A stretch of DNA of 34,284 nucleotides, from NCBI GenBank assembly GCA_029856045.1, contig JAHQWG010000024.1, forward strand, positions 1-34,284, written 5' to 3'. The notes beneath the pieces are model-generated. The model was not told the origin of the DNA, did no database searches, and saw nothing but the letters and a program-made list of their open reading frames with translations. The position numbers were made by a program, and so were the translations under genes. Below, one piece after another: positions 4,099 to 34,281 of this stretch; position 1 is the stretch's first letter; every line of letters begins with the position of its first letter. The stretch is from Promethearchaeia archaeon (GTDB taxonomy: Archaea > Asgardarchaeota > Lokiarchaeia > Sigyniarchaeales > SOKP01).

Positions 4099-6267
4099 TT
4101 ATTTTTTACTTATGCAATGTCCATTTTTAATTTTAAAATTCTCACATTTAGAACAAAATCCAAATCCATTGATTTTCTCCTTTAATCCATAATTCCAACA
4201 GAGAGGACATAAATAATAATCAAAATATTTACCATTTTTTGATGTTTTTATTCTAAATACATTAAAGCCACATTTTTGACAGTTAGCATTCTTTAGAATG
4301 GAAATAGTCCCTCTTTGAGGTAAAGCAAAAGTAGTTTTACAATCTTCTGACTTACAAGCCAAAAATCTTGTTTTCTTTTTTGTTCTTATAACAACCATCG
4401 GTGCTTTTTTGCATACCGAGCATAGAGATTTAGTTTCTTGCCGCTTCTTTTCTTGAATTGAAATTTGTGAATCTTCAAACTTTTTTAAAAAGATAGGTTT
4501 CCGCTTCCTGAATTTATCAAATAAATTTAGAAATTCTTGCCTAATTTTATCGGATATTAACTTCCAGTCAGATATTCCCTCTTTGATCTGTTCCAAATGA
4601 GTTTCTATGTGAGCAGTGAAACTGGGTTGCAAAAACTCTAACCAAATATCTTTTAGATTTTCAATTAGAGTATAACCCAATTCTGTAATGTGAGCGGATA
4701 ATTTTTTTCTTTTAATATAACCTCTATCCAGTAATAGTTTGATCATACTAGGTCTCGTACTTTTTGTACCGATTTTGTTTATTTCCATCAGCTTTATTAA
4801 GCTGTTATCTGTGTATCTTGGCAGTGGTTTTGTTTCCCTATCTTCGAGTTTAATTGATTCGATGTCTAATTCCTTTTCCTTATCAGGAAGGATTAAAGGT
4901 GGATTATATTTCTGCATTAAGAATGGAGCAATTTCATATGGTCCTTTATCTATCAATACATCATTTTTTAAAACAAAGTCTTCATTTCCGACGGAAAAGA
5001 TACACTTAGTTTTAATTGCCTTTCCCGGGCTAGAAAAAAGTGATAAATAATATCTCGCGAGTAGGTCGTATACTTTGGAATGGAGTTGGGAAGGAAAGAT
5101 TTTATCTGTTAAATCTACACTTTTTATCGTAGTGATTGGAGGGTGGTCCTGTGCATCTTTTTTACCTTGATTGGGAACAGTTCTATTTTTATTTATTAAG
5201 AATCGAGAGAAATCTCCATAATCTGTATGTGTAAGAAATTGAGTAATATTTTCTATATGGTTAAAATTTTCCTTATATTTGTCTGTATCCGTTCTTGGAT
5301 AGGTAATTAACTGATTAAGATAAAGATCTTCCATAATCTTCAATGCATGTATAGCTGTAACATTTGAATGTTTAATAATAAGTTGTAAGGCTTTAGAAGT
5401 ATTTAGAGGTGTGGGAGGATATTTCAAAATGGTTCTAGAATTTTTATTTTTTATGTATCCATTTCTTTCATTCCGAATTTTGTTAAAAACAGTTTCTGCA
5501 GTTTTCTTATCTTGAATGGGATTTTTAAGATTCGGGCAAACATATTTGAACCCATTATTCTCTACGATCGCATTAATTACCCAAAACGGTTTTGGTATAA
5601 ATTTTCTAATTTGAGTCTCTCTTAAAAATATTAGATATAAAAGACATGTTTGAACTCTTCCAATAGAAACGAATTGCACATTAGCTTTCTTTATCAAAGA
5701 CTTCAATGTTAAAGAAACTTCTCTTGTGGCTGAAAAACCGATAATTGCATCGATAATAGCCCGTGCCTCACCTGCATAAGCCCAACCCCATTTAGGTTGT
5801 ATCTGATTGTTATAAGCTCTAATAATATCCTGTTTTTGAAGCGAACTAAGCCATAATTGACTTATCTTAGTAATATTTTTAGAATTTTTTACAACTGAAT
5901 ATGCGTCAACTAAGCCTATATTACAACCCTCGACATCCGCATCGGTACCTATGATACAAGAATTAACATTCGCTTTCTTAGAGACAGATTCTAATAAACG
6001 GATGTAGTTATTTGCATATATAGAAGGGAATTTAAAAATTGAGTCGGAATTTATTAAAATATCACGGGGATCAGTCTTAGTCCAACTCTTATACTTATCG
6101 GTATTACGATATTCTTTAATATGACCGCGTAGAGGAACTACATAAATATTTTTATCTTTAATGTAATAATAGGATAATTTATTAAATAATAATTTATCAG
6201 GTATCCCTATTGCATTTGCAATAGCTTCTGCTGCCTTTCTTTTTTCACAAATTATTAATTCATTCAA
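4099..6267 (-). CDS. topA: Type IA DNA topoisomerase (archaeal TopA/Top3-like) with C-terminal zinc fingers
   Basis: 722 residues. The N-terminal TOPRIM domain has Glu8 and the acidic motif TDADVEG at 108-114, corresponding to DxDxEG, for metal binding and strand religation. SIGRVQT at 201-207 corresponds to the conserved SxGRVQT of type IA enzymes, though the usual Pro after QT is replaced by Cys. The active-site tyrosine is Tyr323 in QLITYPRTDTD, which would form the 5'-phosphotyrosyl intermediate. After about residue 645 there are Cys pairs (CSVCKK, ACKSEDC, CQKCGF, CPLC, CSKCEN) that can form about three zinc fingers for single-strand DNA binding. The protein should relax negatively supercoiled DNA or decatenate single-stranded regions. 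There is no helicase domain, so it is not reverse gyrase. The start is ATG at 6267, divergent from the permease at 6510. Confidence 0.93.
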   Translation of the reverse strand: MNELIICEKRKAAEAIANAIGIPDKLLFNKLSYYYIKDKNIYVVPLRGHIKEYRNTDKYKSWTKTDPRDILINSDSIFKFPSIYANNYIRLLESVSKKANVNSCIIGTDADVEGCNIGLVDAYSVVKNSKNITKISQLWLSSLQKQDIIRAYNNQIQPKWGWAYAGEARAIIDAIIGFSATREVSLTLKSLIKKANVQFVSIGRVQTCLLYLIFLRETQIRKFIPKPFWVINAIVENNGFKYVCPNLKNPIQDKKTAETVFNKIRNERNGYIKNKNSRTILKYPPTPLNTSKALQLIIKHSNVTAIHALKIMEDLYLNQLITYPRTDTDKYKENFNHIENITQFLTHTDYGDFSRFLINKNRTVPNQGKKDAQDHPPITTIKSVDLTDKIFPSQLHSKVYDLLARYYLSLFSSPGKAIKTKCIFSVGNEDFVLKNDVLIDKGPYEIAPFLMQKYNPPLILPDKEKELDIESIKLEDRETKPLPRYTDNSLIKLMEINKIGTKSTRPSMIKLLLDRGYIKRKKLSAHITELGYTLIENLKDIWLEFLQPSFTAHIETHLEQIKEGISDWKLISDKIRQEFLNLFDKFRKRKPIFLKKFEDSQISIQEKKRQETKSLCSVCKKAPMVVIRTKKKTRFLACKSEDCKTTFALPQRGTISILKNANCQKCGFNVFRIKTSKNGKYFDYYLCPLCWNYGLKEKINGFGFCSKCENFKIKNGHCISKK

Positions 6268-7888: not shown

Positions 7889-8392
7889 ATGAATAAAATA
7901 GGGTTTTGCTCAGGAATTTTAAGTATTATTATTAGTTTTCTTCAATCTATTCCTTTAGGAATTTACTTCGCCTCTGGAATTTCTTCCTATGCATCAATTT
8001 CACTAAATTTGTTCAGTAATAACAATGTTGATTTTTTTATCTGGGGAACTATCGATCAATCAACATTAGTGGTTCACTCATGGTTAGAATCTAATTTAAT
8101 TAGTTTCTTCATGTTAAATCTTTTTATGATAATTACCGGGATTATAACTATAGTGGGAAGTACAATAGAAAAAATTTCGGGTAAGGCAATAATGTCCCTT
8201 AGTTCATTATTAATACTTATTGTAATCATTTATATCTCTATCTTTATACCGCTAAATAGTATCGAGTTAATTGGCATTTCAATAGATATAATGGGTTTAT
8301 TCACCTCTCTTGGAAATGGTTATTATATATTAATAATTAATTTTACACTCGCTTTAGTTTCTATACGCACTCATCCCCTTGAGACCGATTAA
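7889..8392 (+). CDS. Small four-TM membrane protein, paralogue of the next gene
   Basis: 167 residues from the ATG at 7889. A TTG nine bases upstream in frame is possible, but the ATG gives an N-terminus aligning with the paralogue and has AAGGTTG at a plausible distance. There are about four hydrophobic segments. Shared with the following gene: the N-terminal pattern GF-x2-G-x-LSIII-x-F-x4-P, then an extracytoplasmic stretch with NNV(D/E)(F/Y)F-x-WG-x-I, then three further helices. No catalytic or transport motif is recognised. Tandem duplication is the simplest explanation for the pair. Function is unknown. Confidence 0.7.
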   Translation: MNKIGFCSGILSIIISFLQSIPLGIYFASGISSYASISLNLFSNNNVDFFIWGTIDQSTLVVHSWLESNLISFFMLNLFMIITGIITIVGSTIEKISGKAIMSLSSLLILIVIIYISIFIPLNSIELIGISIDIMGLFTSLGNGYYILIINFTLALVSIRTHPLETD

Positions 8393-8436
8393 ACATAAAT
8401 TAAATTAAAAATAGAATATGTTGGAGAAAATTTAAA

Positions 8437-8916
8437 ATGGGTTTAAGGAAGACTGGATTTGCAGCTGGATTCCTTTCAATAATAATAGCTTTTATTGCAG
8501 GGGTTCCATTTAGTTTTACAAATGAGACAGCTAATTCCATCTTAAATTTTTCAATTTTGATTATCAATAATGTAGAATACTTTTCTTGGGGCTATATTTC
8601 CAATAATGTTGGATATACATCACTTGGATTTAATTCAATTGAAAATTTAATAACAATATTAATTTGGCTGCTTTTTTTTTTACCTGGATTGTTTGGAATA
8701 ATGGCATCTTCCCCTAAATCAATTCCTGAATATTCGAAAAAACTATATAAATTAAATATTTTATTTATATCATTAATCTTGTTTATTTATACTTTAGATT
8801 ATATTTTTAGTTTATTTTCTAGCTTATCTTCTGCATTTTTTGGATTTGGATATTATTTATTATATATAATCCTTATTCTAAATATAATTTCGATAAAAAT
8901 TTTAAAAAAGTCATAA
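8437..8916 (+). CDS. Small four-TM membrane protein, tandem paralogue
   Basis: 159 residues with about four membrane segments. It is a diverged paralogue of the gene ending at 8392: GFAAGFLSIIIAFIAGVP and INNVEYFSWGYI match GFCSGILSIIISFLQSIP and NNNVDFFIWGTI. It starts 44 bases after that gene's stop, with GGAGA about 12-16 bases before the ATG, so the two are probably cotranscribed. The C-terminus is short and basic (KILKKS), suggesting a cytoplasmic end. No known family is recognised. Confidence 0.7.
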   Translation: MGLRKTGFAAGFLSIIIAFIAGVPFSFTNETANSILNFSILIINNVEYFSWGYISNNVGYTSLGFNSIENLITILIWLLFFLPGLFGIMASSPKSIPEYSKKLYKLNILFISLILFIYTLDYIFSLFSSLSSAFFGFGYYLLYIILILNIISIKILKKS

Positions 8917-8977
8917 AATAATCTTTTCTAAATTAACTCGATTCTCTTCAAAATTCTTAAAAAAAAGAAACACGTTA

Positions 8978-9322
8978 TTAGAGAGATTTATAATCTGCAA
9001 AAGCCGCACGTGCTAACCCAACATAATTATCCGAAATCTTGTAATAATTTGTATCATTTTTAGATTTTTTAATTAAAAAATTTGTATCTATTTTCTTTTT
9101 TAATGAAGTCATCATTGTACTTAATGTTACTATACCAATATAGCCAAATCTTTTCGCAAACCTAACTAATTCATTTTCTGAATGCCAATTACCGTCTAAC
9201 ATGATTTCTATGAGTCTATTTTTTCTAACATCTTTAATTCTCTGAATACGATTTAATAACATTGTATAATTAGGCTTATAATATATTTCCTCAATTTTAG
9301 ACAAATCATCTATTTTTTCCAT
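8978..9322 (-). CDS. Small winged-helix DNA-binding protein
   Basis: 114 residues from the ATG at 9322. An in-frame GTG at 9340 would add six residues; the ATG is preferred because it is preceded by AAGAAG, but this is uncertain. The centre (about 35-105) reads as a winged helix: NRLIEIMLDGNWHSENELVRFAKR forms helices 1-2, VTLSTMMTSLKKKI the recognition helix, and FLIKKSKNDTNYYKISD the wing. The N-terminal 30 residues are helical and charged. It is likely a transcription factor or a DNA- or protein-interaction adaptor. It is convergent with the membrane-protein pair, so autoregulation of that pair is not indicated. Confidence 0.65.
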   Translation of the reverse strand: MEKIDDLSKIEEIYYKPNYTMLLNRIQRIKDVRKNRLIEIMLDGNWHSENELVRFAKRFGYIGIVTLSTMMTSLKKKIDTNFLIKKSKNDTNYYKISDNYVGLARAAFADYKSL

Positions 9323-14234: not shown

Positions 14235-15353
14235 TTATAATAGATTTTCAGGTATTTCATCATTATAATATTGCTCCCGTGTAACCCAATTTTCTGAAAA
14301 TTCCGGAATCATTCCCAATATTGATCCACCAATCCAAACCGAAAACATGCGTTCCTTAGGAGCAATTATTTTAACAATTTGTATTTTCTTTTTCTTTTTA
14401 GCTAAAGATAATTCTAATTCTTTATAGAGTCTAGATTTAAAATTAGGAAACATTGATGAACCCCCGGAAAGAAAAATATTGCCTAGTAATTTTGGTCTAA
14501 TATCTACATCACACTCTTCTATGCATTCTAAAATTGCTTCATGTAATGGAGTAATTTCTAAATTAAAAAGTGAAGGATTAAAGATTAATTCAGGGATTAA
14601 AAATCTAAGCTTATCTATTTCTAAAATTTCACCATCTGGTAAAGAAAAAGGTTTTTTATATTCTTCAAACCGTGTCGTATCTTCTTTAAAATCCAATGAA
14701 ACAAAACACGCTTTTTCTTTTATAACTCTTATAATTTGTTTCTTAACAGACGAATCTGCAGTAAATCCTGCTTGTTTTAATTGATGTTCCATAAATTCAG
14801 TAATCAAGTTACCCCCAAGATCTAATATCTTAATAGCATGGGATAACTGAAAACCTTCATAAACTGGAACAATTCTAGTGCTACTATCTCCAATTTCAAT
14901 AATTAAACCTGTTTGAAACCCACCCGAATAAAGTGTTAGAAGTGAATCCAAAACTGGATAAAAACTAGCACAATTAAATTTCTCTAAAAAAATATCAAAT
15001 AATTTTCTTTTATCTTGTTTTGGACTTAAAGGATGAACAGCATATAATACATTAGATACAATTGGATCAACACGTAGATTATAAAATATATACTCAAGAA
15101 TTTTTTCATAATAATTCCAATCATGAATTCTACCATTTTGTATCGGATGAAAAAGCTTATATAATCCCATTGCATCTTGGATTTCATTACCTATGCAAAT
15201 GTCACTAATTTTTTCTCCATATGTGATATCTACATTTTGATATTTTGGTACTCCAACTAAAGTAAAAAAAACACTATTTGGATGGTCTTCACCGGCAAAA
15301 CCAATTTTTGTTGAAAATTGTCCTATGTCCATGATTATTGTTACGTTTCCCAT
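14235..15353 (-). CDS. Eukaryote-type actin homologue (actin-related protein) with substituted ATPase residues
   Basis: 372 residues, close to the 375 of muscle actin, and alignable by eye over its whole length. Landmarks: DIGQFSTKIGFAGEDHPN (phosphate loop 1), HPIQNGRIHDWNYYEKI, FYNLRVDP, LYSGGFQTGLIIEIGD (phosphate loop 2), VPVYEGFQLSHAI, IKEKACFVSLDF, NIFLSGGSSMFP, KIIAPKERMFSVWIGGSIL and a C-terminal WVTREQYYND. The DNase-I loop is present at near-normal length. Asp9, Lys16 and Asp156 (actin Asp11, Lys18, Asp157) are kept. Gln14 in P1-loop order, Asp136, Glu153 and Arg160 replace actin Ser14, Gln137, Asp154 and His161. Family knowledge: Gln137 and His161 position the attacking water. The protein should fold as actin and may bind ATP, but hydrolysis is probably weak or different. 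It is 63 bases downstream of the PIG-L gene. Canonical Asgard actins keep Gln137 as far as I know, so this is probably an Arp-like paralogue. Confidence 0.93.
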   Translation of the reverse strand: MGNVTIIMDIGQFSTKIGFAGEDHPNSVFFTLVGVPKYQNVDITYGEKISDICIGNEIQDAMGLYKLFHPIQNGRIHDWNYYEKILEYIFYNLRVDPIVSNVLYAVHPLSPKQDKRKLFDIFLEKFNCASFYPVLDSLLTLYSGGFQTGLIIEIGDSSTRIVPVYEGFQLSHAIKILDLGGNLITEFMEHQLKQAGFTADSSVKKQIIRVIKEKACFVSLDFKEDTTRFEEYKKPFSLPDGEILEIDKLRFLIPELIFNPSLFNLEITPLHEAILECIEECDVDIRPKLLGNIFLSGGSSMFPNFKSRLYKELELSLAKKKKKIQIVKIIAPKERMFSVWIGGSILGMIPEFSENWVTREQYYNDEIPENLL

Positions 15354-16332: not shown

Positions 16333-17025
16333 TTAATCTCCGCGCATAATTTTTTTTAAACGATTTAATTCATCTAACATTTCATCTCTTAAAGTACTTA
16401 AACTTCCTCCTGCTTGAGATGCAACCGTTGGACTAGGTGTAGTTGGAGGTGTTCCAAGAGATGGTGCTGCAGGGGGTCCAGAACGCTTTGCAAATGAGGG
16501 AGTCGAAACTACTGGACCAGCCTTAGAAGGTGGTCCTGCTTTTCCTGGAGCTGGTGGTAATTTTGGTGGGGGAGGTAAATTTTTTGAAGGTGGTCCAGCA
16601 TTTATAGGTGGTCCAGCATTCGTAGGTGGTCCAGCCTTCGTAGGTGGTCCTGATGGGGGTCCTTTTTTAACTGGAGGTCCTGGTCTTTTAGGCGGTCCTG
16701 ATATCGGTGCAGATGGTGTTGCTGCAGCTGATGGAACGGCAGTAGTTTTTCCGCCAGCTCCACCTAATAAAGCGAATAAAGTACTTGCGGCTTGAGTTTT
16801 TGCAGTACCACCAGCTTCTACTTCCGGAGTTAGCTTTACTGAAGAAGAACTAACTGTTTTTCCTTTTACGACTTTAACTCCTTTAATATCATTCTCTGCT
16901 TTTTTCAAGGATTTACCAAAGTCATTTATTGTATCAACTGTATCCTGTAAAACTTCAGATAAATCACCTAAACTTTTACGAAGATATTTAATAACCCGTG
17001 TAACTGTTTTTTCATCAGAAGGCAA
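16333..17025 (-). CDS. Proline-rich (GPP-repeat) protein with C-terminal amphipathic LKKI helix
   Basis: 230 residues. The N-terminus (1-50) is a charged helix suited to coiled-coil formation (VIKYLRKSLGDLSEVL). Residues 81-92 are small and hydrophobic. About 110-195 is low-complexity with some nine GPP units in roughly six-residue repeats (AGPPTNAGPPINAGPPSK) and a PPPPKLPPAP core. The last 20 residues form an amphipathic helix with MLDELNRLKKI. Polyproline tracts recruit profilin-, SH3- or EVH1-type domains, and an amphipathic helix ending LKKx is the shape of WH2 actin-binding motifs; an actin-regulator role is inferred mainly from the gene lying two genes upstream of the actin homologue. 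The start is TTG at 17025: an in-frame TGA lies just upstream and GAGTGAT sits five bases before it. No known family is recognised. Confidence 0.75.
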   Translation of the reverse strand: MPSDEKTVTRVIKYLRKSLGDLSEVLQDTVDTINDFGKSLKKAENDIKGVKVVKGKTVSSSSVKLTPEVEAGGTAKTQAASTLFALLGGAGGKTTAVPSAAATPSAPISGPPKRPGPPVKKGPPSGPPTKAGPPTNAGPPINAGPPSKNLPPPPKLPPAPGKAGPPSKAGPVVSTPSFAKRSGPPAAPSLGTPPTTPSPTVASQAGGSLSTLRDEMLDELNRLKKIMRGD

Positions 17026-20151: not shown

Positions 20152-20883
20152 TTAAGGCATAGAAATAGTGTTATTAGTTTCATCGAGATTGATAATACCT
20201 TTTACAGCTAGTTGTTTAATCGTCCGAACAGCCATGATTGGAGGTATATCAAGTTTTTTTTTCAAATCATCAAGCTTACAACTACCCTTTTGCATAATAG
20301 TTGTGATAATCTCAACTTCAGGAATCTCTTCATCTGAATATTCCATTAGAAATGACACAAAGAAATTATTGCTTTTTAGTTGGCTTAATTTATTATCTAA
20401 CTCTTCCAATTTTTCTTTTGAAAAAGTAGTTTTTAGTTCATTCTCCCTACGTTCATTGTCAAGTGTTATTTGATCTAACTCAGTTTTTTCAGATTCTTTT
20501 GTAGTAATTTTTTCATTTAAAGAATCTAGTTTTGAAATAAGATTTTCTAATTCAAACTGTGGTTTTTTCAACTCATCGGTTGCTGTTTCAAGATTTTTAT
20601 TTAAATCTGTGTTTTTTGTGGATAATTCTTCTCTTTTTGCTTTTTGTTCTAGGATTTTTTTATCTAATTCTTCAGATTTGATCTTTAATTCAGTTGTTTC
20701 AGAATTTTGTTGGTGTATTGTATCTTCTAATTTTTTAATTTCTTTTTGTTCAGATTGCATATTTTTCCAAGTCAAACTCAAATGCTGGATAATTTCTTCA
20801 TTATTTTTCTGTAAAGATTTCTTATATGTATCAAATGCACCTTCAAATTGTTCTATTAACGCCAAAATTTCTTTTGAGTTCAT
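20152..20883 (-). CDS. Coiled-coil protein with C-terminal winged helix (second of a coupled pair)
   Basis: 243 residues. About 40-175 is a long coiled coil rich in Glu, Lys, Leu and Asn with heptad spacing (KIKSEELDKKILEQKAKREEL). About 185-243 forms a winged helix: VEIITTIMQKGSCKLDDLKKKL, then PPIMAVRTIKQLAVKGII (recognition helix) and NLDETNNTISM (wing). Its ATG overlaps the stop codon of the preceding gene by one base (TAATG), which indicates translational coupling and fixes the start. The two proteins share architecture and likely pair as a heterodimer (inference). A role in DNA or chromosome organisation, or in membrane complexes with winged helices, is possible; no family is recognised. 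Confidence 0.68.
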   Translation of the reverse strand: MNSKEILALIEQFEGAFDTYKKSLQKNNEEIIQHLSLTWKNMQSEQKEIKKLEDTIHQQNSETTELKIKSEELDKKILEQKAKREELSTKNTDLNKNLETATDELKKPQFELENLISKLDSLNEKITTKESEKTELDQITLDNERRENELKTTFSKEKLEELDNKLSQLKSNNFFVSFLMEYSDEEIPEVEIITTIMQKGSCKLDDLKKKLDIPPIMAVRTIKQLAVKGIINLDETNNTISMP

Positions 20884-21644
20884 TAAAAACCAACCTCTTC
20901 TTTTAAGATAACTGTTCCAGCAGTCTCATCATATTTAATTGGTCCATTTAGCTCAACCATTTTTCTAAGAACTTTTATAATTTGTTCTTCTTTCATATCT
21001 ACAGCTGCGCTTATTTTTTTTATTTCTAGAGATGTACCTTTTTGTAGAGTTTTAATAACTTGCATTTGTGAAGAGTGGATATAATCTTTCTTTATTAATA
21101 ATTTCATAGCTTCCACTCTATTTCCAAAGGACTCAACAATTTTACTTTTTTTTTCAAAATCATTGCCAAGTTGAAGTTGAATTTCTATTAATTTAGCTTC
21201 AAAAACTTCCTTTAATTTTGTTAATTCCCGAATTTTAGTTTCCAAATCTTTTAAACGCTCACTTCGATTTTCAAATTCTTTTTTTGTTGTGTTTATTTTT
21301 TCTAAAGTCTCTGTCAGCTCATTTCGTATAGATTGAATTATATCCAATAATTTTTGACGTTCTATAGTTAATTCATTAATTTCCTCCTCTAAATTTGAAA
21401 TATTTCGATTATTTTGAGAAATTTTGTTTTTTAATGAATTGATATTATCTGTATTGGATTCTATTGTTTTTAAATTAGAATTTTTTTCTTCTTCAAATTT
21501 TTCAATTAATTCTAAGATCTTTTTAGTGTGTTCTATTAATTTAGGCATTGAATCTTTATTCAATCCGTTAATTCCTTCAATTATTGATGAAATTTTCTTT
21601 AAAGAAGTTTTTACTTCAGTTATATAACTCATAATATAACTCAT
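20883..21644 (-). CDS. Coiled-coil protein with C-terminal winged helix (first of a coupled pair)
   Basis: 253 residues if the ATG at 21644 is used; a TTG at 21659 and an ATG at 21632 are also in frame, and no strong Shine-Dalgarno settles the choice. Residues about 40-165 are a long coiled coil (LEEEINELTIERQKLLDIIQ, DLETKIRELTKLKEVFEAKL). Residues about 195-253 form a winged helix: SSQMQVIKTLQKGTSLEIKKI, then MKEEQIIKVLRKMVEL and a wing PIKYDETAGTVIL. It is a diverged architectural match to the following gene and overlaps it by one base. No Walker motifs, so it is not an SMC ATPase. Confidence 0.68.
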   Translation of the reverse strand: MSYIMSYITEVKTSLKKISSIIEGINGLNKDSMPKLIEHTKKILELIEKFEEEKNSNLKTIESNTDNINSLKNKISQNNRNISNLEEEINELTIERQKLLDIIQSIRNELTETLEKINTTKKEFENRSERLKDLETKIRELTKLKEVFEAKLIEIQLQLGNDFEKKSKIVESFGNRVEAMKLLIKKDYIHSSQMQVIKTLQKGTSLEIKKISAAVDMKEEQIIKVLRKMVELNGPIKYDETAGTVILKEEVGF

Positions 21645-21716
21645 ATAATCTACTTGCAATATTTAATTCTTTCTAAAAGATTTAAAACTATATAAAATCG
21701 CAATTTGATAAAAATT

Positions 21717-33222: not shown

Positions 33223-34281
33223 TTATCTATCTTGTTTTTCTAACCTTTCTAATGTTTCTTTAATTTTTTTCAATTCAACTTTTAAATCTTCGCCTTGTTT
33301 ATTTTCTCCTTTTCTCCTACTTTTTAATTCTTCTTCATCAATTTTTTTTAAAAGAATATTATTTTTCAGTTCTTCTGAAATTATTTTTTTAATTTCCTTT
33401 AAAAATTGATTGCGGGGAAGCCCATTTATTTCCATTATTCTTTCCCTTACTGCAGATCTAATAAATTCTGATTTCGACTGATTAGTTTTTTTGGCAAATA
33501 TTTCAATTTCTTTTAATTCATTTTCATTTACCAGAAATTTGACTTGATATATTCTTTTTAACGTTTCTTCGACTTTTTTTAATTCTTCTCTACGTTTTCT
33601 TCTCTCTTCTTCTCTCGCTTTTAACGCTTCTTCGGGGGGTTCTTTAAAATATTTACCATTTTTATGAGATGGTATAAAATCTTCTTTATATTCTCTTATT
33701 ATCGCTTTTCTAAGACTACTTGATATTCTTTTATTATAAATTGATTTCCGAATAATAATTTGATGAATCAACTTACCAATTGCTTTTTCTAAATTGCTAT
33801 TATCATTTATTGAAGTTTCAATGTAATCAACTAATCCCTCTTTTTTAACAAATTCACGATATTTTTTTCTATCAATGGTTTTAAGGTTTTCAATTAAATC
33901 AAATTTATTTCCAATTAATAGGAGTGGCCATCTATTTAAATTAATGTTATTCCAAATTTTTTTAAGACATTTAGAGTGGTATTCAAAAGTTTCTGGATTA
34001 GATAGGTCGAAGACAAATAAAACAGCTGAGGTTCCGCTGTAATATTGTTCATGGAGCTTTTCAAATTTTTTATCATCAATAAAATCCCAAATTTGAAGAT
34101 TATAATTATTTTCATCAACCAATACTGATTTTTGAAAAAAATTTACACCAATTTTTAATTTCCAATCTTCTTTTTCTTCGAATAGTTTTTTAGCATATTG
34201 TTCCATTATATTAGTTTTCCCAACCCCTGACTTTCCAAGAACTATAATTTTAAATTCATCTTTAAATTCTTCTTTACTCAT
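33223..34281 (-). CDS. Rab/Ras-type small GTPase with degenerate switches and a C-terminal ribbon-helix-helix-like segment
   Basis: 352 residues; a usual Rab is about 200. Residues 8-178 are a Ras-fold G domain: P-loop GKSGVGKT at 16-23, LKIGVNF at 42-48 (switch I), IWDFIDDKKF at 64-73 (switch II), VLFVFDLSNPETF, NKFD at 125-128 and ETSIND (G5). Lys43 replaces the switch I Thr (Ras Thr35), and the WDxxGQ Gly and Gln are Asp69 and Asp70. Residues 217-245 are a charged helix. About 244-285 reads as a CopG-type ribbon-helix-helix: strand YQVKFLV, helix ENELKEIEIFAKKTN, turn QSKS and helix EFIRSAVRERIMEI. A coiled coil follows to the end. There is no C-terminal prenylation Cys. It probably binds GTP but hydrolyses poorly; the added segment could bind DNA or dimerise. 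ATG at 34281. Confidence 0.88.
   Translation of the reverse strand: MSKEEFKDEFKIIVLGKSGVGKTNIMEQYAKKLFEEKEDWKLKIGVNFFQKSVLVDENNYNLQIWDFIDDKKFEKLHEQYYSGTSAVLFVFDLSNPETFEYHSKCLKKIWNNINLNRWPLLLIGNKFDLIENLKTIDRKKYREFVKKEGLVDYIETSINDNSNLEKAIGKLIHQIIIRKSIYNKRISSSLRKAIIREYKEDFIPSHKNGKYFKEPPEEALKAREEERRKRREELKKVEETLKRIYQVKFLVNENELKEIEIFAKKTNQSKSEFIRSAVRERIMEINGLPRNQFLKEIKKIISEELKNNILLKKIDEEELKSRRKGENKQGEDLKVELKKIKETLERLEKQDR

Follow-up and report, generated by a model that had tools for sequence, protein, structure and literature searches.

The gene at positions 33223-34281 on the minus strand encodes a protein of 352 residues (P0001), in which a Ras-like domain is followed by a first copy of a conserved motif, a ribbon-helix-helix (RHH) domain and a second copy of the same motif. 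The explanation that we favour, at a probability of roughly 0.55, is that this Lokiarchaeal protein binds DNA sequence-specifically, regulates its own expression and carries a Ras-like head as well as WH2-like arms. It would act as a DNA-anchored actin binder, either in the manner of ParR, with the RHH domain on promoter-proximal repeats and a tail on actin, or as an actin-sensing repressor. Dimerisation is a property of the RHH fold, and the RHH domain of this protein would, to judge from its fold, dimerise as well. Its QVKFLV strands would enter the paired GTAC half-sites that surround the TATA box of its operon at a spacing of 11 bp and would thereby repress this operon; what has been observed is that these sites are conserved and rare.

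Domain layout and relatives of the fusion

The window, by which we mean the whole stretch of 34,284 nucleotides that was analysed, is contig C23 of a genome of 3.34 Mb in 55 contigs. The open reading frame runs on the minus strand from 34281 to 33223 over 352 codons without a stop; an earlier reading made from the letters alone (the sequence-only reading) had given its coordinates correctly and without the strand. That reading had also proposed that a small GTPase is joined here to an RHH-like segment, and this fusion is borne out by one uninterrupted reading frame in which the G domain (residues 11-175; 33757-34251, minus strand) matches Pfam Ras with an E-value of 1.5e-32 and the RHH domain matches Pfam RHH_1 above its cut-off.

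The RHH domain covers residues 246-285 (33427-33546, minus strand) and consists of the strand QVKFLV and helices at residues 253-266 and 270-286. RHH_1 matched residues 251-282 with 21.8 bits in the whole protein, against a cut-off of 20.5, and with an E-value of 9.7e-6 when a 50-residue piece was searched. At the same place in the window protein, the NikA-like, DUF6290 and NCBIfam aCcr1 models each scored below their own cut-offs, so that RHH_1 alone passes among the RHH-type models; PHROGs and NCBIfam gave only weak RHH labels. Across the family the signal was broader: in the RHH regions of 20 members, searched at E≤0.01, the NikA-like model matched 19, DUF6290 17 and RHH_1 6 (the former two we take to be RHH families). 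The strand-helix-helix order of CopG/Arc type that had been suggested for residues 244-285 is thus upheld at the level of sequence, both by the profile search of this region and by the family-wide matches.

Against this stands a PDB search with a sequence profile built from the RHH region, in which no RHH chain came up; the C-terminal 126 residues alone gave chance matches only. The AlphaFold2 model of the full-length protein, built from an alignment of two near-identical rows, had a pLDDT of 44.7 and was set aside. An AlphaFold2 monomer of a 57-residue piece reached a pLDDT of 75 and placed helices at residues 253-266 and 270-286 as expected, with the strand region drawn as a helix. The Foldseek matches of this model were weak (best E-value 3.2), and seven of the 13 listed are presumably RHH proteins such as CdbA, CopG and antitoxins, and its closest structural neighbours were likewise weak (best Z 3.7). 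The segment downstream of the RHH domain, which had been described as a coiled coil, turned out not to be a plain coiled coil: residues 290-345 form the second copy of the conserved motif.

Relatives were sought with the C-terminal 129 residues over 79 genomes of the order, and 29 of these contained a match at E≤0.01. Judged by their open frames, GTPase-RHH fusions are encoded in 10 genomes, the window's included, which belong to two Lokiarchaeal genera (g1 and g7); homologues therefore keep the fusion. Three genomes encode fusions of a leucine-rich repeat (LRR) domain to the RHH domain (L013, L016, L026), and the remaining relatives are stand-alone RHH proteins with frames of mostly about 119-179 residues. 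In an alignment that includes L009, identity between the window protein and the nine other GTPase-RHH fusions ranges from 46 to 91%, and the strand QVKFLV is common to all ten. The fusion is no assembly accident, because the L009 protein (91% identical) and eight further aligned proteins retain it. Between the window gene and L009, dN/dS over the whole gene was 0.48. By region, the ratio was highest, and constraint thus weakest, in the copy-1 region (0.70), followed by the G domain (0.56) and the RHH domain (0.34), and it was lowest in residues 287-352 (0.14; 3 synonymous and 2 other differences); it should be noted that these ratios rest on few differences (15.3 synonymous and 33.7 other over the whole gene). 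Lastly, the LRR-RHH genes L175 and L176 of two g7 genomes lie in the same gene neighbourhood as the GTPase-RHH genes L166-L173 (the product labels of the neighbours at this locus are our assumption). It therefore seems that in g7 the head domain has been exchanged above a constant RHH part, with an LRR domain replacing the Ras-like head at the same locus in these two genomes.

Promoter boxes upstream of the family

CopG, Arc, RelB and the archaeal aCcr1 are RHH autorepressors that act on paired half-sites at their own promoters. Sites of this kind were apparent when 360 bp upstream of 24 family genes were read. All eight g7 GTPase-RHH genes carry the sequence ATGTAC[TA]TATTC[AG]GTACAT immediately upstream of ATTTATA, which resembles a TATA box, and about 40 bp further on they have another GTAC pair; much of their remaining upstream sequence is variable. 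We then scanned 29 genes for pairs of palindromic tetramers (not all A/T) spaced 9-12 bp apart within 250 bp, using 300 dinucleotide shuffles per gene to judge significance. GTAC pairs with a spacing of 11 bp lie within these 250 bp at 14 of the 16 genes whose RHH strand is of the Q-x-K type. For L176, which has a Q-x-K strand, the GTAC pair lies just beyond the 250-bp limit, and L009, also of this strand type, has no pair at its own start and a box at the operon promoter instead. GATC pairs were found at nine of the ten genes in which the strand is of the F/L-x-K type, and at L213 there is only one GATC. No gene of either strand class carries the pairs of the other class (0 of 26). Neither half-site pair was present within 250 bp upstream of L021, with the strand QITFWL, or of the distant L215 and L216, and the genes with a single pair (L175, L030, L025, L038 and L027) reach p-values of 0.010-0.063 only. 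As a tree of the RHH domain (49 columns) has one change between the GTAC and the GATC class, the match between strand residues and sites represents one event and not many.

The strict boxes are rare. In 11 chosen genomes, a genome-wide search for ATGTACN7GTACAT yielded 13 sites, every one of which lies 53-307 bp before an RHH-family gene or before the dehydrogenase gene of the presumed operon, and a control pattern had no matches in the same 11 genomes. A triple GATC was found at one place each in eight of nine chosen genomes, 27-76 bp before the RHH gene, with no matches for the control; the genome without it is G050, and G038, which contains L213, was left out of that search. A looser double-GTAC pattern was present in four of six genomes, at the RHH gene in three and away from it in one (G014), and had no match genome-wide in G017 and G029. 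Before the stand-alone RHH gene L217, five GTAC tetramers follow each other at exact 11-bp steps (G001:C156:18410-18457), an array that resembles the iterons of plasmid centromeres.

The start of the window gene lies 3 bases from the contig end, so that its promoter falls outside the contig and its box had to be placed by synteny with G011. In L009 the box occupies 5042-5060, upstream of the gene for a short-chain dehydrogenase, which is itself followed by the GTPase gene. The only exact box in the window's genome is on contig C8 at 815-833, before the same dehydrogenase gene. On one contig of G011, the counterparts of C8 and of the window lie next to each other with about 145 bp between them, which makes it probable that the window gene comes second in an operon headed by the C8 box.

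DNA binding, which the sequence-only reading had put forward, thus receives indirect support from the conserved paired half-sites at family promoters and from the finding that the strict boxes occur nowhere else in the genomes searched. On the strength of these promoter boxes, we regard it as very probable that the RHH domain binds DNA and acts as a repressor of its own operon. The window protein would then have its RHH domain and the paired half-sites at its own promoter in common with the RHH autorepressors named above, whereas these lack the Ras-like or LRR domain and the WH2-like motif of the present family.

In g1 genomes, a Cdc6/Orc1 gene and a tyrosine recombinase (L009 2653-4482 and L229 1394-3223) are found next to the operon, and there is perhaps a replication origin near the g1 operon. 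We set this proximity aside as evidence for an origin or centromere because, in the contexts scanned, it is confined to three g1 genomes with the gene or a remnant of it. The remnant, in G013 (L177 7850-8125), retains residues 260-351 only and lies near the recombinase gene; GTACN7GTAC does not occur in the 16 kb around it.

The conserved motif on both sides of the RHH domain

The sequence-only reading did not contain the motif that flanks the RHH domain. Copy 1 occupies residues 189-243 approximately (33553-33717, minus strand) and is homologous to Lokiarchaeal WH2-like proteins of about 50 residues. Copy 2, at residues 290-345 approximately (33247-33414, minus strand), has the core EELKNNILLKKIDEEEL, which is more canonical than that of copy 1. 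A profile of 15 motif copies, among them the copy-1 row of the window protein (profile A2), matched 71 of the 79 genomes of the order at E≤0.01 and found both copies in the window protein, with E-values of 6.2e-22 for copy 1, whose own row is in the profile, and 1.6e-4 for copy 2. A second profile, A4, was made from 22 stand-alone proteins of about 50 residues, with the window protein excluded. It matched 71 of 79 genomes at E≤0.001, and in 69 of the 79 the match lies in a short frame (34-108 residues, mostly 48-68; one with an internal stop). A4 recognised copy 1 with an E-value of 1.0e-5 in its own genome; the scores were 27.2 bits for copy 1 and 15.4 bits for copy 2, against 11.1 bits at most in 1000 shuffles. 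Elsewhere in the phylum, A4 matched in 2 of 148 genomes (G213 and G221); these weak matches lie inside proteins of 267 and 395 residues and were rejected as members of the motif family.

The motif occurs in several settings. The stand-alone family of about 50 residues (MTPVGKELKEEIKKGVSLQKVDEEDL...), which has a WH2-like core, is exemplified by L080 4084-4233 and, in the window's own genome, by G000:C27:302540-302689. Among the stand-alone RHH proteins, 12 of 14 carry the motif, after the RHH domain in ten and before it in two (L025 and L038). It precedes the RHH domain in the long GTPase and LRR fusions and is absent from the short GTPase-RHH fusions, which make up 6 of the 10. Proteins of about 490 residues in four f3 genomes (L074, L075, L076 and L077) have 9-11 motif-like stretches each, several of them weak, and a 253-residue protein of the window's genome (L073) also carries the motif. 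In two g6 genomes (L069 1489-2268 and L070 948-1790), a profilin domain is followed by the motif and a further C-terminal part. The profilin part matches Pfam Profilin below the cut-off, with E-values of 0.0035 and 0.01, and in the PDB it matches four chains with E-values from 9.8e-11 to 8.7e-7, one of which is annotated as profilin, the others being Asgard profilins (the PDB entries 5yed, 5yee, 5zza and 5zzb, annotated as uncharacterized, are taken here as Asgard profilins).

The likeness to WH2 emerged from profile searches of the PDB. When A4 was run against 177,635 PDB sequences, an N-WASP chain came first with an E-value of 7.4e-5 summed over three repeats, and a second N-WASP chain and a MIM peptide were the other WH2 members among the 15 matches listed, with unrelated chains standing between the WH2 ones. 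For 16 hand-picked motif rows, N-WASP and Spire chains took the first five of eight places (E-values 0.0013-0.1), and the same rows reversed gave three matches, none of them to WH2; we take 2d1k and the Spire chains to be WH2. Both sets of matches gain from summed repeats, with no single repeat shown at an E-value below 0.1. The RHH-linked form of the motif (profile A2), in which the linker is longer and the LKKV core degenerate, did not retrieve a WH2 chain from the PDB; copy 2 retains the helix and LKKI. Pfam WH2 was nowhere above its cut-off in motif-family proteins or in the genomes of the order that were searched, and was not among the matches listed for the 22 small proteins. The genome search with Pfam WH2 produced 24 weak matches in 18 of 78 genomes, four of them inside motif-family frames, and also matched in 7 of 14 control genomes, so that it supports the WH2 reading weakly. 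As there was no pass with Pfam WH2, the motif is named WH2-like and not WH2.

The small proteins have a helix, a G and an LxKV-like core, which they share with the WH2 motifs of N-WASP and Spire and with the motif of Asgard gelsolins, in which WH2-like motifs have been described (PMC9433394). Unlike in the gelsolins of that paper, the motif found here forms a separate protein family of about 50 residues, is repeated within longer proteins and is fused to RHH, LRR, GTPase and profilin domains. Among the open-access papers searched, none came up that describes an independent WH2- or thymosin-like family from Asgard archaea; where Lokiarchaeota and thymosin are mentioned together, the paper concerns crenactin. 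Profilin and gelsolin are already known as Asgard actin regulators and are named in two papers whose main text does not mention WH2 (PMC9834061, PMC12993045); a review that treats both Asgard archaea and WH2 is PMC12050087.

The profilin fusion and the multi-repeat form fit an actin role of the motif, and from these sequence relationships the two flanking WH2-like motifs most likely bind actin. If they do, a monomer-binding and assembly layer of the Lokiarchaeal cytoskeleton could be tested with short peptides. An alternative that we regard as possible, albeit on the unlikely side, is that the protein is a plain autorepressor, in which the G domain or LRR senses a ligand or a protein and the flanking motifs are helical linkers without any relation to actin. 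Such a role would suit the occurrence of the strict boxes at the family's own promoters only, in the genomes searched, as well as the absence of the motif from 6 of the 10 fusions and the failure of its RHH-linked form to match WH2 in the PDB. It does not sit well with the homology of the motif to stand-alone and profilin-fused forms that have a WH2-like core, with its presence before or after the RHH domain in 12 of 14 stand-alone RHH relatives, or with a dN/dS that is lower in the stretch around motif copy 2 than in any other part (on 3 synonymous and 2 further differences).

The Ras-like domain and the comparison with known systems

The best PDB matches of the G domain are Rab7 and Rab11 chains. 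In all ten fusions, the P-loop (GKSGVGKT in the window protein), NKxD and ETS, i.e. G1, G4 and G5, are intact. In Ras proteins, the gamma phosphate is contacted by the switch Thr and Gly. Of the ten fusions, nine have Lys and one has Ile in place of the switch I Thr, L024 having a Thr one residue later, and the Gly and Gln of DxxGQ are lost in all ten, with sequences such as DFIDD, DFIHN and DIIDD in their place. For comparison, we inspected 33 other GTPase frames of the window's genome, the four weakest of 37 other GTPase matches having been left out. The Gly is kept in 32 of these and the Thr is in register in 30; of the three without it, two look shifted and one has Ser. One of the 33, L156, has ExxG for DxxG. 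Another GTPase of this genome, in a 547-residue frame (L146 104-1744), has no DxxG Gly (WDIGAQ).

Since G1, G4 and G5 are kept and the switch Thr and Gly are gone, the G domain of the fusions likely binds guanine nucleotide and is unlikely to make a GTP/GDP switch, and owing to the loss of the switch residues we file it as a Ras-like fold and not as a switching GTPase. The Ras-like head would probably hold its nucleotide without the usual switch, and because it appears unable to switch, we propose that it serves as a fixed docking or nucleotide-loaded domain. Hence the nucleotide-switched protein that the sequence-only reading had envisaged, in which GTP or GDP would alter the affinity of the RHH domain for DNA, is not supported. 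We consider this idea improbable: the intact P-loop, NKxD and ETS of all ten fusions and the operator evidence that places the RHH domain on DNA speak for it, but the switch I Thr and the switch II Gly and Gln are missing from all ten, unlike in most GTPases of the same genome, and boxes of this kind also occur with genes in which an LRR domain stands instead of the G domain.

In eukaryotes, actin is nucleated by dimerised WH2 motifs, and the WH2-like features brought out by the PDB profile searches would allow the RHH domain to be merely a dimeriser that gathers G domains and WH2-like motifs for actin nucleation, with DNA playing no part, but this is very improbable given the conserved, rare promoter boxes that track the strand residues.

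Among the Rab-like GTPases of Asgard archaea, 74 related sequences were reported in MK-D1, of which 35 are single-domain proteins and 26 are combined with roadblock or longin domains, and some have unassigned domains (PMC10933270). They resemble the window protein in having a Rab/Ras-like G domain, and multi-domain forms occur among them, but the fusions described here have lost the switch residues; the main text of that paper does not mention the ribbon-helix-helix (PMC10933270). No description combining ribbon-helix-helix, small GTPase and Asgard was found in the open-access papers searched.

The favoured reading of a DNA-anchored actin binder has its closest functional parallel in ParR. ParR works on about ten iterons, as in plasmid R1, whereas the window family has two GTAC pairs. 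In the type II system ParMRC, an RHH dimer of ParR binds repeats that the promoter can split, and it is autoregulatory (PMC5016525). The ParR tail occupies a pocket of the actin-like protein, much as actin modulators do (PMC5016525). The window protein shares with it the layout of an RHH domain at promoter repeats and a tail proposed to bind actin, and adds a Ras-like or, in relatives, an LRR domain that is absent from ParR. The ParR family was not among the Pfam matches of the window protein and its relatives. When the contexts of RHH genes were scanned with one actin query (E≤1e-6), which could miss a divergent gene, an actin gene came up only in that of the window, 18 kb off. The likeness to ParR is therefore one of a similar way of working, and we claim no membership. 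MRTF and other RPEL proteins are transcription factors that sense actin through a monomer-binding motif. They are alike to the window protein in concept only, as no sequence relation was shown; Pfam RPEL was not among the matches listed for the window protein, its relatives or the small proteins.

It is possible that the fusion forms a DNA link to the eukaryote-like actin system. More tentatively, and with doubts that we would not hide, we suggest that the RHH proteins as a family have actin-binding WH2-like arms, some with a frozen Ras-like or LRR head, and one promoter site per genome, and that they might either anchor actin to the chromosome, like ParR, or let the level of actin monomers control a gene, like MRTF. 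The motif protein of about 50 residues might then correspond, in archaea, to beta-thymosin, and the forms with repeats or a profilin domain to Spire-like factors of actin assembly. If the motif binds actin, the RHH proteins would tie the cytoskeleton to defined DNA sites, with a bearing on how these close relatives of eukaryotes segregate their chromosomes or control their genes.

Several other genes may be mentioned. The window encodes an actin-family protein of 372 residues (14235-15353, minus strand; Pfam Actin E-value 3.9e-88) about 18 kb from the RHH gene and on the same strand. Near the actin gene is a gene for a proline-rich protein of 230 residues (16333-17025, minus strand) with many PP runs, a short charged C-terminal stretch and no Pfam match, which we presume to be a possible profilin ligand. 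Two adjoining coiled-coil-like proteins are encoded at 20152-21659 (minus strand), one of which has a C-terminal MarR-like match below the cut-off. In L087, a small WH2-like gene (4969-5139) is located about 3 kb from an actin-like stretch (8313-9140), which shares 32% identity with residues 56-326 of the actin encoded in the window.
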